Of a DNA stretch of 25,225 bases, positions 12,335-23,607 are shown in pieces; the first letter of the stretch is position 1, and every line of letters starts with the position of its first letter. The position numbers and the translations under genes are program-made. The notes beneath the pieces were generated by a model. The model did no database searches, was not told the DNA's origin, and saw only the letters and a list, made by a program, of their open reading frames with translations. The stretch is from positions 9,806-35,030 of the forward strand of contig FN648810.1 of assembly GCA_000310025.1 (NCBI GenBank), read 5' to 3'. The DNA comes from Ectocarpus siliculosus. Its lineage: Eukaryota > Sar > Phaeophyceae > Ectocarpales > Ectocarpaceae.

Positions 12335-14179
12335 TCAATGGTAGGTAGGCAGCCAGTTGATGATGGCTGCAACGATCTCGGCCGGGGAGTCCTCCTGGAT
12401 AAAGTGGGATCCAGCCACCGTAACCTTCGTAACATTGGGCCAGCCGCGGCAGACGCCACGCGCGTGGCCCACCAAGAAGGCTCCTGGCTCCACGTTTATG
12501 AAAAGCTTGGGGACCGGGGATGCGGCAAGCCAGGCACCATAGGCCTCAATGATAGCCACAGAGTCGGCAGGGTCTCCTTAGAAGGGAAGTGAGCGAGGCC
12601 CCGCAAGGGGGGGCCTGTGCTTTGCCGGCTTCGAGGAAAGGCTTGCGGTAGGCTGCGTGCTCTTCTTCCCGAGAGGCCACGAAGAATGGCCCCCGGTAGA
12701 AGCTTTTCGATGAAGAAATTGTGTTCCAGCGCCATCTTCTCGCCTTCGGGTCCTCGAAGCTGCTTGATAGGGCCGTGGAGTTCCTTGTTGAAGTGGTCCC
12801 ATGTCGGGAAGGTAGTGACAATACCTGACGGTCGATCAATGACAGGGGACGGACAGAATCAGCACACAGCCACCAGTGTGTTCAGGCTTTACGCGTGCCA
12901 AAAGCTCCATGTCAATCCCCCGCAAGGTTACTATTTGACTATTTGCCGTTCAGCGCCGGCAAACCGTGGCCTCCAAAAGATAAGCGAGGGTGGGCTGACC
13001 TTATGCCCAACTTCCTTCGTGGAATTGTTATGTCATCTCACCCAAGAGAACGGTTGGACAAAATTTCAAATGGGTTGAGTTTACGTACAACAATCTGCCA
13101 TGCGCCTCTCACATAGGACCGCAATGCAAGCAGAGACAACCCGCACCACAACTGCCACCAGAGTTAGTACATTATTATCACGCATGCCGTAGTCGTTCGG
13201 CCTACACTCCGTATCCCAACAACGCACGGACGGAGAACATCGGGGTGTCGCTGGACCAGCATCGCATTCACCAAGCGCGAAGTGCCGATACGTGTTCGGC
13301 GAGTCGCATGAAGGGTGAGCTGCATTCCGCTAAGAGTGTTTTGCGTAGATCTAAAAAGTGGTGTTTTTGTATGGATGACAAGCCTGGAATGGTCTCTCTT
13401 CCGGAGACAGCCATAGGATACACTTCCTCGTGGTGCTTCACCACATGAACACTGTGTGGTACGATCATCCCCCGTGAGTGGAGTTAAAGTTCCCCACCAC
13501 GCACAAGCATGATCCAAAATCCCACTCATTCGGGTACCGCGAAACCCCCCCCCCACAGTGCGACTGGCGCATTCTGCAGTATCGACGCAACCTCACGCCC
13601 ATCCCCGTGGGTGCCACCAGGCCGGTGCATTTAATTTGAGAGGATGAGGAGGCATGCTACGAGGGGGGGGAGCGAGGAAGGCAAGGCGCACGGCGATCAG
13701 GTTGTTCGGAATGGCAGTCAGGCTAAGTGCGTACATCATCGTCTTCTGCCATACAATTCCCTGCACGTCACGATTCACCCCACCTTCCATGAACGCAATG
13801 CCTTTTACCGCGTTCCTGTGCGTCTCCGCCCAGTGGAAGCCTAGCCCGGACCCCCGGTCGTGGATCACAAGCGTTACCTTTTCTGTCACGCCAAGCGCCT
13901 CTAAAAGCGCGAACAGCAAACGCGCATGTTCGGGGATGGTGTAGCTGTTCGGTCCCGAGTTGTCGATCTTTTCCGAGTCGCCCATGCCGATGGGATCAGA
14001 AGCAACCAGGCGTTCCTGCCCTCGAAAGCTGGCATGACGTTACGCCACAGGTAGGATGACGGCAGGACGCCATGCAGAAACACGATCGGATCGCCGGTGC
14101 CGTGCTCCATGTAGGCCATTTCCTTGCCATGGATCGTCTTGTATTTTTTCTCGTATGGGAGAACTGCGACAAGCGACAT
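12335..14179 (-). pseudogene. Haloalkane dehalogenase-like alpha/beta hydrolase (LinB/DhaA type), two exons, disrupted
   Basis: Haloalkane dehalogenases cleave carbon-halogen bonds through an Asp nucleophile. Exon 1 (14179-13784) starts [21 protein letters not shown], like LinB, then [49 protein letters not shown] and GIAFME. A phase-1 GT-AG intron (13783-12825) joins it to exon 2 (12824-12335): FPTWDHFNKELHG, ALEHNFFIEKLLPGAIL, HAAYRKPFLEAGK, AIIEAYGAWLA, PVPKLFINVEPGAF and VTVAGSHFIQEDSPAEI, then a TGA stop. Catalytic Asp (VIHD), Glu (FME) and His (SHFIQ) are all present. Four lesions break the frame: a missing base near 14003-14011, an extra base in GGG (12670-12668), an extra base in AAA (12623-12621), and TAA at 12580-12578 where GAA is expected. 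Two halide-binding positions also differ: HGNP-type Asn is Val, and the Trp after the nucleophile is Arg. Decay is likelier than four sequencing errors, but three lesions are single-base indels. Confidence 0.85.
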
Positions 14180-16199: not shown

Positions 16200-17455
16200 A
16201 ATACCGTTGAATCTGCTGCGAATTTCATGGACAGAACGAGTGAATTGGTCCGGTCCGTTTCCATGTAGGCCACATATTCCACGACGTGGTACCATTTTAC
16301 ACTGGATCATCGTGTTGGTTTCGCAGTACTTCCACATACAAACATTCAAGAGTGTTGTGCGACTGAAGTACTGAAAAGGCAGAGATTTGGCTCCAGATGC
16401 ACATCGGTTTCCTCGACGAGAAAGCCTCCTCGACTTACTGACAGTGAAACATGTTTTTGGACAATGCCCCGCCTGCGATGTAATGCCTCTAATTCGATCG
16501 AACTAGGGAGATATGCGTGTCGGAGTCGGGAGTCGGTGCGACACCGGGACTTCGGGTGCAGACGGCCCTCGATGTGAATGTCATGGACAAGAACGAAGGA
16601 GCGAAATTTTCACGTAGGGTGTTACCACGGTGAAACACAGTGTTTTGAAGAAGTCGGGACTCGGTTCACACCGAAACTTGAGACACCGAAAGCCCTGCCC
16701 TTGAATGTCATCGAAGAATATGGATGAATGAACTTCGTCAAGACTGTATTTCCGTGGAGCTCTATTTCTTCGACGATATGGTACCATTTTCTTTGGGATG
16801 TAACAGATTTTAACGAACGTTCACTCCGACTTCGACCACCGTGTCGTGCTACCGAAATCGCAGAGTATTTGCTTCTGGTGCATATGGGTCCTTTCGACGA
16901 GGGACCCTCCTCGAAGCCGATAGTGAAAAAATATGCTTTGGGCGATGACACCCTGCGATGTGATGCCTTTGATTCGATCAAACCACTGAGATCGGAGTCG
17001 GGAGTCGGTGCGACACCGGGACCTCTGGCACAGACAGCCCTCGATATGAGTGTCATTGACAAGAATGAATGAGTGAGATTCTCACTCAGGGTTTCGACAG
17101 TGAAACAGCATGTTTGGAAGTAGTCGGGACTCGGTTTCACACCCCAACATGGGACACCGAAAGCCCGGCCTATGCATGTCATCGAAGGATATGAATGAGA
17201 GGACTTCGTCAAGAATGTATTTCGGTGGAGCTCTATTTCTTCAACGACATGGTACCATTTTCTTTCAGATGCTACATAACTTTTTCAACGTTTTCACTGC
17301 GACTTCGACCACCGTGTCGGGCTACAAACGACGTAGAGTTCTGTTTCAGATGCATTTGAGTTCTCTCGACAAGTAACTCTCCTCGCTGACAGTGAAACAT
17401 GTTTTGGGCAATGATGCCCTGCGATGTTATGCCTTTGATTCGATGTTACTATGTA
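16200..17455. repeat. ~475-bp satellite-like tandem repeat, about 2.6 copies
   Basis: CGGAGTCGGGAGTCGGTGCG occurs at 16521 and 16993. AGTGAAA(C/A)A...TGCGATGT(A/G/T)ATGCCT...TTCGAT recurs near 16443, 16923 and 17391. TGGTACCATTTT recurs near 16286, 16780 and 17250. The period is 469-480 bp. Within one period two halves resemble each other (AGTCGGGA(G/C)TCGGT..., GACACCG..., AATGTCAT...), so it is a higher-order repeat built on a shorter ancestral unit. A 196-codon minus-strand frame crossing it is repeat-derived, not a gene. Confidence 0.85.
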
Positions 17456-19692: not shown

Positions 19693-22496
19693 TCACCAGC
19701 TGGTCTTCCGCTTCTTCGCGCTGGGGCCTTCTTGACCATCCGACGAATCGAGCTGGACCGTGAAGGGTGTGTGGAAGACGTCTTTTGGGTCCACGTCTCC
19801 CTTGAGCTTCTGCAGACGCTGGTACAGTCCGCTATCGCCGTAGTAACTCTCCCACATTTTCTCCATTTTGATTTCGCCGAAGGAGCCCCACGTCATCCGA
19901 ATATCTTTGCCTTTGCTGAAGGACGGAAGCAGCGCTCCGAATTTCTTGTGAAGTTTGTTCGCGATATCCTTGCCATCTTTCTCGTAGAAGACATCGAACA
20001 CGATGCCGATGACGTTGTTGCGGTGGGGGATTGACGTGATGCCTTTCGTGCCGTTTCCTTCGTAGGCGCCGCCTCCCATCACCATCTGGAACACCAGCTT
20101 GACCTCGCGTGTTGTGATGGCTTCATGAACGAGGTCGATGAATTTCTGGACGAACTCGTCGGTCAGTGTATCGGTTGTGCAGTTCAGGCGCTTCACATAG
20201 GGGAACTTGTACTCGCGCCCGTCCCTTGTCATCCCAGTGTTCCGCACGAAAGCGTTGCTCATAAATGACAGTGTGCGGGGGGATCCTAGATCGAAGTCGT
20301 TGGACGTAGGAATTTTCGACAACAACATCCAGGGCTTGGCGTTCTTGATCTTCGTGATTTCGTCCTCCATTCGTTCAATATCACTGGTCGGCAACGGAGT
20401 ATCGTGGACGTTACCGTGCACCATCTCCACCAGGATAACCGCGGGTTTGAAAGTTCCTCCCGAAAGGTCGCCACTGTTCGACATGGCTGTGATCATCAGA
20501 TCGCAGTCTTTAGACAGTGCCCCCTTAGTCAACGGACCTGTGCGGTCTTGTACAACCTGCTGGGTCCGCCTCTGCACCACCCCCATGGCCTCCTCGAAAC
20601 GACCCTTCGAGTACCGATACACGCCATTGTATCCCCGTGAAAACCGGTGGGCCGCATCCTTAATACACTCGAACTCAATCTCGGTGATGACGCCAAAGCT
20701 TCCCGGTCCACCGCCCAGAACGCCCCAGTAGATGCGGTCCTCGATGCTTGATTTCTCGTCCACTTTCTTGGAGGGTCGCTTGATGGTGTAGGTCGACACG
20801 TGGCCGTTCAGGTCAAGCACAATCTCGAACGAATTGACGTGGTCGAGGGCGAGGCCGTAGCTGCGCAGGAGATGACCGAAACCACCGGACTGGACATGAC
20901 CACCGATGCAAACTTCAGGACACTCGCCGTGTGGGATGGTGACCCCGTTCTTCTTCAACTCTGCTGCCAGGTTAGTAAGGCGAGCGCCGGGGCCCAGCCG
21001 AGCCATCACTTTCTGCTGCGGGGCATTGAAGACAGTGACGTCATGGAGGAGGTCCATGCTCAACAGCATGGTGTCTTCACCGCCGGACGACAGCCCGCAG
21101 TACTGATGGCCACCGCTGCGAGCGACGACCTTCTTCCCTTTGTCGATAGCATACTTCACAAACGCGACCACGTCGGCCTTGTTCTCGGGATAGCCAATGA
21201 CGAAGGGGTGCATGCGCTCACGATCTTTCTCCTCAGTGTACGATGTGGTGGCGTACTGAGTCGCCTTGTTCTCGTACTCCTTCTCCGTCTTATCGAATAC
21301 TTCCCCACCGAAGCCCGGGATATCGCAACAGACGGTCTTTCCCTTGTCGACAGAGGGCGGAACCGCAGGCAAATCTTCAAGCTGTAGAGAGGGCTCGGGC
21401 ACAGAGGGAAGTATGGCATCGAAGTCTCGATGGAGTTTTTTGTCGTCCGGTGTCTGGAAGGAGGGGGATGGTCCGTGCAGCGAAACAGAGACCGTGAGGC
21501 TACCCTCTTCCTCGACACGCAGGGAAGATGACACCTTCACGCTGAGTGCTTGGGTGGGGCTGGAGCCGAAGACCCTATCGACGGCAGTGAAGTAGTCGGA
21601 GTATTGGTCGGGTGTCGTGACTATGCCGGCGTAATGCGTGCGGTGCTCTTCATAGAAGTACTGCTTGTCTGGCCCTCCTCCGCGACAGCCTGCACGATTT
21701 CCACCCCTTCCGCCGAGGCCTTGTCCAACATGAGCTCCTCCACGTACTGTTCTTTCTCCTTCAGCTTTTGTATCATCTTGTCGGTATACTCTGAAGAGCC
21801 CTCCTTGCACATCGTCGTCACCGTGAACATGGCCATACCGTATGCGCCGCTGAAGACGAGAACGGCGCATCGGGTCGAGTGCCCAGGTTTGTGAGAAACT
21901 AGGTGGTCCACCACACGCCTGAAGTGGTCTGTGGTGTACACGAAGGTCAAGCGCGTCATCTTGTAGTGTTTAGCGGCTTCCGTAGACAGCAGTGCATTGA
22001 ACACCACATTGGTGATGACGTGATTCTTCGCCTCGGTCACGTCCTTCGTTTCGATGGGCTGAGCACTCTCCTTCGCGACATACGTGCAGCTCTCCACGAA
22101 CGCGCTCAGGAGGTCATGATGAACGAGGTCGTTTACGGTGGACAGGGCGTTGGAGAGGACGCTTTTGTCCGGATTCCCATCCAGGGGCAGGAAGAGCCCT
22201 TTTTCCATGAGCTTGACGGCCAGGTCATACGTAGTAGCCCCTGCACCGACAGACACTTTTTCCCCGTCGATCTCCACAGCGGCGAATTTGCGAAGGTTCA
22301 CCACTACAGCGGCCGTGCCATCGACGCGTCCACTGTCAGCAGCATGCCGACCGCTGCGTACCAGCGCCGGGGCGTCGGGTTTGTAGTTCAGCGCCGCGTG
22401 CACCTCGGCACACGTGGTAGGGTAGAGAACCGTGTGCTCACCACTCACGTCGCTTTCTTTGCGATGCGGATCGATGCTTGAGCTAACAACACGCAT
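19693..22496 (-). CDS. Tandem FAD-binding (PCMH/berberine bridge enzyme-like) oxidoreductase, one frameshift
   Basis: The protein of about 934 residues is in two overlapping frames: 22496 to about 21673, then 21672 to 19693. One missing base in the GGGCC run near 21672-21675 separates them. The second half is a complete FAD-linked oxidase: VVARSGGHQYCG (His for flavin attachment, ~21110), GECPEVCIGGHVQSGGFG (second attachment Cys, ~20920), then YGLALDHV and WGVLGGGPGSFGVITE, and near the end DPKDVFHTPF as in berberine-bridge-like enzymes. Such enzymes oxidise alcohols, sugars or alkaloids and pass electrons to oxygen; the substrate here is unknown. The first half has a related module (VRSGRHAADSGR, VSVGAGATTYDLAVKL), but the Gly-rich GxGGxxxGG segment is missing, so it probably cannot hold flavin normally. 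The chosen Met (22496) follows a CCCTGCAG acceptor ending at 22505, suggesting a 5' untranslated intron. The stop TGA overlaps a perfect GTGAGT donor (19696-19691), so another exon may follow. The tail contains KKRK. Confidence 0.85.
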
Positions 22497-22509
22497 GGTT
22501 GGCTCTGCA

Positions 22510-23607
22510 GGGACACATACATACATGAATACGTACAAGGAGAAACGGTGGGTCATGACTTAGCATTAGCACTACAGAAGATTGTTCATTGAGCGTCCAT
22601 CTACATTTACACTCTGTACCAATAGCTGAGCGTAACAGGTAGTGTATTTGATACAAATGCGGAAATGGCGGCCATGTACGGCGAACGCATAACAGTTTGT
22701 GCCGTTCTCAGGTTTGAGCACCTTTCGTGCGTAATAGGGTGTGCACGGGTCGTTGCTACTGCTGCCGTCGTATGAAATGGTGCATGCAATGAAGGGGATT
22801 GACAGATCCACATTCGTGTTATTTTGGGACTCGTATGGTACAGGGCATGGGATAGACTACGTCGTCGTTGGAAAGCTCTGTTTCAGGCGCATCGACTGGG
22901 CGCAAGAGATATGGTTTGGTAAGTTTAAGAGGTCCAGAAAACGCACTTTCGAGAACACTTGTGATGTTTAGTTATGCGCCGTTAGTTATGTCTTATGATA
23001 GCACCTCGAAAGGATTGGTCGTCTTTTTTCAAACACCGGATTTGACCGTGTCACCCCGATGGGCACCTGTTGATCCAACCTGTGTTTTATTTTGATCCTG
23101 CGATGTTATCTCAAATCCGACCGCACTGCTAAACGTCGTCACTCACTGCTGCGGAGTTCATGTATCCAGACCTGAAAAACGACTGAACAGGATTAAATGT
23201 ACGCGGTGGCCCAACGAGCAGACCAACTATCTCTAGTGGTAGCTATTGTACCAGCCGACCAACACAGCGTCAGCATATGTGCTGCCACGGCAGCAGTACT
23301 ACAGCAGTAGCAGTCGCTTGCCGGGCTGCTGTTTTCTGTGAGTTTGGCCGGTTGAAAAATATCTTTGGTTGCGTGCGTGTCCAAGTTGCAGTGTTGGGTG
23401 GACAGGCTTGGTGGCGGCCCATGAACCCTACGGACCCTGTGGAATTCTGCCGGCCCTCTATTGCATGCAAGACATGTGAAAAAAACGTGAGGTTGAGACA
23501 AGAGTTGCTTTATTTTTTGGAAGGAAATACAACCAAACCCATCGCTATCAGTGGATAATGGTCCAAGATAAATTAGCGGTGCATTCACAATCTCTCACAC
23601 TACTGAC
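22510..23607. other. Intergenic stretch, 5' flank of the flavoprotein gene
   Basis: No recognisable protein on either strand. It should include the promoter and a 5' untranslated exon of the minus-strand flavoprotein gene, but I cannot place them. Confidence 0.4.

Follow-up and report, generated by a model that had tools for sequence, protein, structure and literature searches.

The AA7/BBE-like oxidases belong to the VAO superfamily and combine PF01565 with PF08031. According to a survey of oomycete AA7 proteins, berberine bridge enzymes (BBEs) contribute to the synthesis of alkaloids, antibiotics and steroids, and mono- and oligosaccharides are also among the compounds that they oxidise (PMC12537922). 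The domain layout given in that survey is a single F domain with a single S domain; only proteins of 400–650 residues were retained, so that a protein of about 930 residues would be left out (PMC12537922). Some AA7/BBE-like proteins are mono-covalent; FgCelDH7C and AtBBE-like 28 have lost the flavin-linking Cys and keep FAD, as reported in two papers (PMC8035211, PMC4898691).

Here we describe a locus of Ectocarpus siliculosus that departs from the arrangement of one F and one S domain per chain. Two FAD_binding_4 matches occur in the window, in two frames, and two occur within a single chain in each of the bacterial relatives L017 and L124. We give a probability of roughly 55% to the reading that this is a single gene for a two-module flavoprotein, in which an active bicovalent C-terminal module would have a flavin-less N-terminal module as its partner in cis.

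Layout of the locus

Within the window, by which we mean the whole stretch of 25,225 nucleotides that was analysed, the gene occupies the minus strand from an ATG at 22496 to a stop at 19693. Its N part is open in one frame (P0001, 22556–21621) and its C part in another (P0002, about 21690–19693), both on the minus strand. The preliminary description had given 19693–22496 as one oxidase with two tandem modules; the two modules were recovered, but the span is not one open frame, a point that description did not raise. The features are as follows.

21672–22496, minus strand: N-module, first 275 codons, frame A, from the ATG at 22496; degenerate PCMH FAD domain and the first part of the following cap
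22140–22430, minus strand: FAD_binding_4-matching stretch of the N-module (profile positions 4–105 of 139, E 1.3e-9)
22344–22358, minus strand: RSGRH in place of RSGGH, the second Gly changed to Arg and the His retained
22128–22163, minus strand: SVLSNALSTVND at the place of the Gly-rich loop (GGxG...R in aligned single-module relatives); loop deleted
21661–21705, minus strand: place of the frame change between the N part and the C part (error, lesion or short intron)
21336–21672, minus strand: frame-B segment leading from the frame change to the C-module, presumably the remainder of the cap plus a linker; no detectable match to bacterial caps
19753–21321, minus strand: C-module, complete BBE-like (AA7) oxidase with F domain and S domain
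21106–21108, minus strand: His codon of RSGGH, expected 8-alpha-histidyl FAD link
20920–20922, minus strand: Cys codon of GECPEV, expected 6-S-cysteinyl FAD link
19765–19857, minus strand: C-terminal BBE motif (PF08031)

A second in-frame ATG is found upstream of the N-module at 22556. It is followed by a hydrophobic stretch (22496–22556, minus strand), and the other end of the gene encodes a basic C-terminus, AKKRKTSW (19696–19719, minus strand); these two features suggest different locations for the protein.

Elsewhere in the window, exons of an acetyl-CoA-carboxylase-like biotin carboxylase lie at 2–1903 on the minus strand, one recognized by Biotin_carb_N (6.2e-12, Pfam), one weakly (E 0.14) and one by reading only. 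The first runs into a GT, the second has an AG before it and a GT after it, and the third is preceded by an AG; borders of this kind support a eukaryotic host. An ORF at 13593–13985, minus strand, has an alpha/beta hydrolase match (Abhydrolase_1, E 1.7e-8), and a 196-aa ORF at 16622–17212, minus strand, has an apparent repeated peptide pattern and no Pfam match.

The oxidase half and the degenerate module

In Pfam searches, the C part scored 76.9 bits against FAD_binding_4 (cut-off 26.4; E 1.6e-21; profile positions 5–135 of 139) and 23.6 bits against the BBE motif PF08031 (cut-off 20.6); the latter fell below its cut-off in the bacterial two-module relatives L017 (15.8 bits) and L124 (17.7 bits). 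RSGGH and GECPEV are both present in the window translation, which bears out the earlier statement that this module keeps both covalent flavin residues. The His and Cys predicted to bond FAD bicovalently are likewise present in L017, L124, L016 and L018, and in L125 in two frames; wherever a row of the C-clade covers the place, His, Cys and Gly loop are all kept. Among PDB sequences the C part found 62 at E 0.001, mainly over the F domain, the best being chitooligosaccharide oxidase 6y0r. Profile matches and motifs together mark the C-module as complete, a BBE-like (AA7) oxidase module that retains both flavin-anchoring residues.

The YxNY motif marks the place of the catalytic-base Tyr. That place holds Phe in the window and L124, Tyr in L017 and L125, and, in the other 89 rows, Phe in 45, Tyr in 37 and another letter or a gap in seven. 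An altered oxidase, considered on account of the Phe, was dropped, since Phe is the commoner letter among the relatives. Given the varied roles of BBEs (PMC12537922), the range of candidate substrates for the C-module is wide.

The N part scored 38 bits against FAD_binding_4 (curated cut-off 26.4; E 1.6e-9; profile positions 4–105 of 139; Pfam), and a profile check of N residues 1–275 also recognized the domain (E 1.3e-9); in NCBIfam the N part gave no match above a cut-off. A chance match was rejected, because the score exceeds the curated cut-off and the match is repeated in relatives. The motifs are in the state first described, with the VGAGAT strand kept, RSGRH present and the Gly-rich loop missing.

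The same picture extends to all five N-modules found. Three features, namely the flavin Cys, the second Gly in RSGGH and an entire Gly-rich loop, are each kept by 0/5; the loop is deleted in the window N-module and replaced in the others, and the His of RSGGH is retained, by that alignment, in two of the five, window copy included. The module that had been called apparently dead is therefore degenerate in every member, and not specially so in the window copy. Among 90 other relatives (L015, with no match, and L054, with a short frame, having been excluded), the first two loop Gly are present in 90/90, the Cys in 62/90, and the second Gly and His of RSGGH in 90/90, this last count being partly due to selection because one of the two scan patterns ends in RSGGH, while the loop lies outside the pattern. 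By these comparisons the N-module belongs to the same family but has diverged, with neither the Cys nor the Gly-rich loop and with the second Gly gone from RSGGH. Identity between L017 and the bacterial relative L125 at codon positions 1, 2 and 3 was 0.65, 0.75 and 0.41 in the N-module, and 0.72, 0.75 and 0.47 in the C-module. Third positions differ more than first and second positions, so both bacterial modules look kept as protein, and the bacterial N-modules appear to be constrained at that level.

Searched as a single sequence against the PDB, the window N part found no flavoprotein, its one match being an adenoviral fibre (E 2.2); a profile of the five N-modules found 33 sequences at E ≤1, the best a flavin-dependent oxidase (2.2e-8). 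A model of the window N part built with 21 further rows, namely L017 and 20 other related loci that include single-module relatives, had a pLDDT of 70.8 and a pTM of 0.67. Its ten-residue means were 81–94 over most of residues 21–110 and 161–200, and dropped to 51 at residues 51–60 and to 38–60 at residues 121–160, the region of the lost loop. A model from two rows, without single-module relatives, reached pLDDT 43 and was not used for the fold claim. Foldseek returned 75 PDB matches to the larger model at E ≤0.001; the best 50 of the 75 have query TM-scores of 0.39–0.59 and are all, to judge by their names, PCMH-type flavoproteins, among them cytokinin oxidases, D-lactate dehydrogenases, BBE-like proteins, GilR, EncM and MurB. 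The profile match and this model of moderate confidence thus favour the earlier suggestion that the N half folds as a PCMH domain. Because the helping rows share the fold, the model indicates compatibility with it rather than independent proof. In whole-chain alignments, MAFFT placed the window N-module against the C-module.

Relatives of the two modules and their history

One scan of bacterial genome contigs found 353 relatives, of which the best 80 were kept. Three of these stood out: L017, with 36% identity over the C-module (E 2e-92), and L016 and L018, with 41% and 47% over part of it; the remaining 77 of the best 80 showed 26–37% over part. L017 is a protein of 911 aa that carries both modules, as two FAD_binding_4 stretches, in one frame. 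The window C part is identical to it at 197 of 541 positions and the window N part at 62 of 267 (pairwise E 3e-11). A general two-module habit among the relatives was considered and rejected, as 12 of the 80 loci have at least 250 residues before the match, and Pfam scanning of all 12 gave a second FAD_binding_4 in L017 only.

An N-profile made from the window and L017 (A4) was then run against 377 genomes from the phylum that L017 comes from. At E 0.001, 51 genomes gave a match of some kind, and in four it was strong (8.0e-52 or better), G001, G045, G198 and G340, the first being L017's own genome and hence a row of the profile; the next genome stood at 4.4e-7. In G340, a 13.2-Mb contig encodes L124, an intact two-module protein of 985 aa that aligns with L017 at 41% over L017 residues 10–911. 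In G045, L125 carries the two modules, its C-module being interrupted by a shift of frame, and in G198, L126 (whole 11-kb contig) consists of an N-module only, with a stop codon, and no C-module on the contig. Genome size and kinases prompt the guess that the hosts are myxobacteria. The architecture proposed for the window gene is thus found elsewhere, intact in bacterial L017 and L124 and with a frame change in L125.

Further profile searches scored only a few candidates per genome, in phyla named from seed loci. For the N-profile A5 the limit was set at 1e-15, because A5 picks up ordinary oxidases as well, with values as low as 3.1e-12 across the first 110 of its positions. At this limit it found 2 of 289 genomes in the class of G340, both already known, 1 of 5 in the family of G001, itself, and 0 of 398 in Pseudomonadota (phylum of G380). 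The C-profile A6 at 1e-40 found none in Bacteroidota (phylum of G379, 0/247), Pseudomonadota (0/378) or Actinomycetota (phylum of G381, 0/198); the empty searches count as weak evidence, the known positives being partly rows of the profiles themselves.

Viral contigs scanned with P0002, P0001 and A6 gave no relative, within the reach of single-protein scans, which extends to close relatives only, and a viral origin of the gene was rejected on these scans. Scanning with A1 found seven loci on viral contigs, six with frames of 431–538 aa and the seventh (L015) unmatched by P0002. Scans with P0002 found no relative in phages and 98 records in plasmids, none covering 80% of the query. A literature search for a tandem with a dead PCMH module showed none among the papers listed, subscription papers being largely outside its range.

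The alphaproteobacterial MAG ZH-15may19-298 (G002, 1.2 Mb) has C-module genes without a preceding N-module. The N-module, carried by L017, L124 and L125, is accordingly not present in every branch, being absent from these close relatives of the C half. L016 starts with a signal-like stretch (by reading), L018 has an internal stop, and a third C-module piece of G002 lies on another contig; at E 1e-30 the family occurs in one of 42 genomes of the order, that of G002 itself. These copies look broken or cut. Downstream, L016 and L018 both enter the same stop-containing sequence, as might happen at a repeat joint or a mobile element.

In a tree of 100 F domains, midpoint-rooted, made without the two C pieces of L125 and having long branches, with window N filling 49% of the columns, a single branch (100/98) sets the five N-modules apart. 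A second branch (100/100) does so for the C-modules together with the alphaproteobacterial genes, and window C groups with the alphaproteobacterial genes (95/83). Holding N and C together in the tree was not rejected (p-AU 0.349). Compared directly by BLAST, the two window halves do not resemble each other (best pairwise E 6.8), and a recent internal duplication was discarded on this ground, although the N-module of L017 is recovered by window C at 4e-5. An old duplication may be the origin of the two modules. The rarity of the pair (4 strong of 377; 0/398 at 1e-15) hints at gene transfer, as does the relatedness of the oxidase halves found in a eukaryote, in an alphaproteobacterium and in bacteria with large genomes.

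The frame change, the proposed protein and known systems

In coding scores over 150-base windows, the first frame leads as far as the one that begins at 21,780 and the second takes over with the one at 21,720, and protein-like text, read by eye in the translations, changes frame at about 21,660–21,705. Near the break there are 21 GT–AG pairs, 23–215 bases apart, whose length would produce this frame change, and for this reason a short intron is possible; the cause may be a sequence error, a real lesion or such an intron. The residues before the C-module number 275 plus about 115 in the window, against 392 before the match in L017, and these lengths agree with an unbroken two-module layout. The stretch after the change had no match to bacterial caps (−3.0 bits), and the piece before it was also weak (4.3 bits); the former is thus at most a candidate for a kept cap.

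The alternative that survives best treats the eukaryotic copy as a gene in decay, possibly acquired by transfer, in which the frame change prevents a working protein, while the bacterial two-module protein is real. We regard this as unlikely, though deserving serious attention. The frame change falls inside the N-module, damage is likewise seen at two of the four bacterial loci that have an N-module (the frame change of L125; the stop and lack of a C-module on the contig of L126), and this 2.8-kb gene is without a large intron in a window whose carboxylase exons are split by about 860 and 600 bases (by reading). Coding signal nevertheless continues on both sides of the break, with a third-position G+C of 0.72 in the N part and the C-module and 0.65 between them. 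Apart from the break there is no stop across some 930 codons of the gene span, so that any decay would be young, and an assembly error accounts for the break equally well.

More improbable still, to our minds, is an N-module that binds FAD or another nucleotide noncovalently, for electron transfer or sensing. The kept fold, RSG and VGAGAT-type strand, and the His retained in the window copy, are what such binding would draw on, and known AA7 and BBE-like proteins hold FAD without the Cys, as two papers report (PMC8035211, PMC4898691). In all five N-modules, however, both the second Gly of RSGGH and the loop, whose first two Gly are present in 90/90 elsewhere, are missing or replaced. That the two modules are separate proteins from overlapping frames is very hard to credit, for although the C frame has an in-frame ATG at 21870 that opens a 725-aa ORF, the roughly 60 codons from there to the frame change overlie the N-module, whose frame scores better, and L017 and L124 carry both modules in one frame.

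We therefore return to the single two-module flavoprotein. Several points weigh against it. The window copy is not one open frame, so a broken gene or a misassembly is possible, and what follows the frame change bears no detectable likeness to bacterial caps. The C half has single-module relatives, and the N model is poor without single-module rows (pLDDT 43) and at 38–60 over residues 121–160 with them. The occurrence of the same pair in a few bacteria implies that the dead half may be retained for a purpose. Most probably, the chain pairs an ordinary oxidase half with a pseudo-oxidase half, devoid of flavin, that would hold or gate it. The C-module would oxidise a small or oligomeric substrate with its bicovalent FAD, and its electrons would pass to O2, yielding H2O2. 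The N-module would bind no FAD and, in cis, would act as a pseudo-dimer partner, a term suggested by fold kinship, that stabilises the active module, shapes its entrance or docks it. Because L017 and L124 carry the active and the dead module in one intact chain, removal of the latter could reveal its role directly.

A bolder reading, which we hold tentatively, is of a rare undescribed flavoenzyme lineage in a eukaryote and a few bacteria, in which an AA7 pseudoenzyme has been kept in cis, as a built-in regulatory or pseudo-dimer subunit, to control its active bicovalent twin and the pair has moved between domains of life as a unit. Pseudoenzyme partners are well known for kinases and proteases; we know of none for covalent-flavin oxidases. 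Surveys filtered by length would miss such two-module proteins.

Of the known systems, the AA7/BBE-like oxidases share with the window C-module FAD_binding_4, the RSGGH His, the GxCP Cys and the BBE motif; the window gene differs from them by a second, degenerate module of the same kind fused in front. The mono-covalent FgCelDH7C and AtBBE-like 28 are likewise without the Cys but keep FAD, whereas the window N-module is also missing the Gly-rich loop and has an intact module next to it. BBE-like oxidases of 850–923 aa in Kordia and a Chitinophagales MAG (L019–L023, L027, L039) resemble the window gene in having an extra N-terminal domain, but there the domain is a laminin-G-like lectin, not a dead oxidase, and only one FAD_binding_4 stretch is present. 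Kordia algicida kills algae. The GlcD and GlcE subunits of glycolate oxidase are two related PCMH-type chains that work as partners; they differ from the present case in being separate chains of another family, and the window N part matched nothing in NCBIfam above a cut-off. Judged from its sequence, the two-module protein is an AA7/BBE-like oxidase with an extra, apparently dead module.
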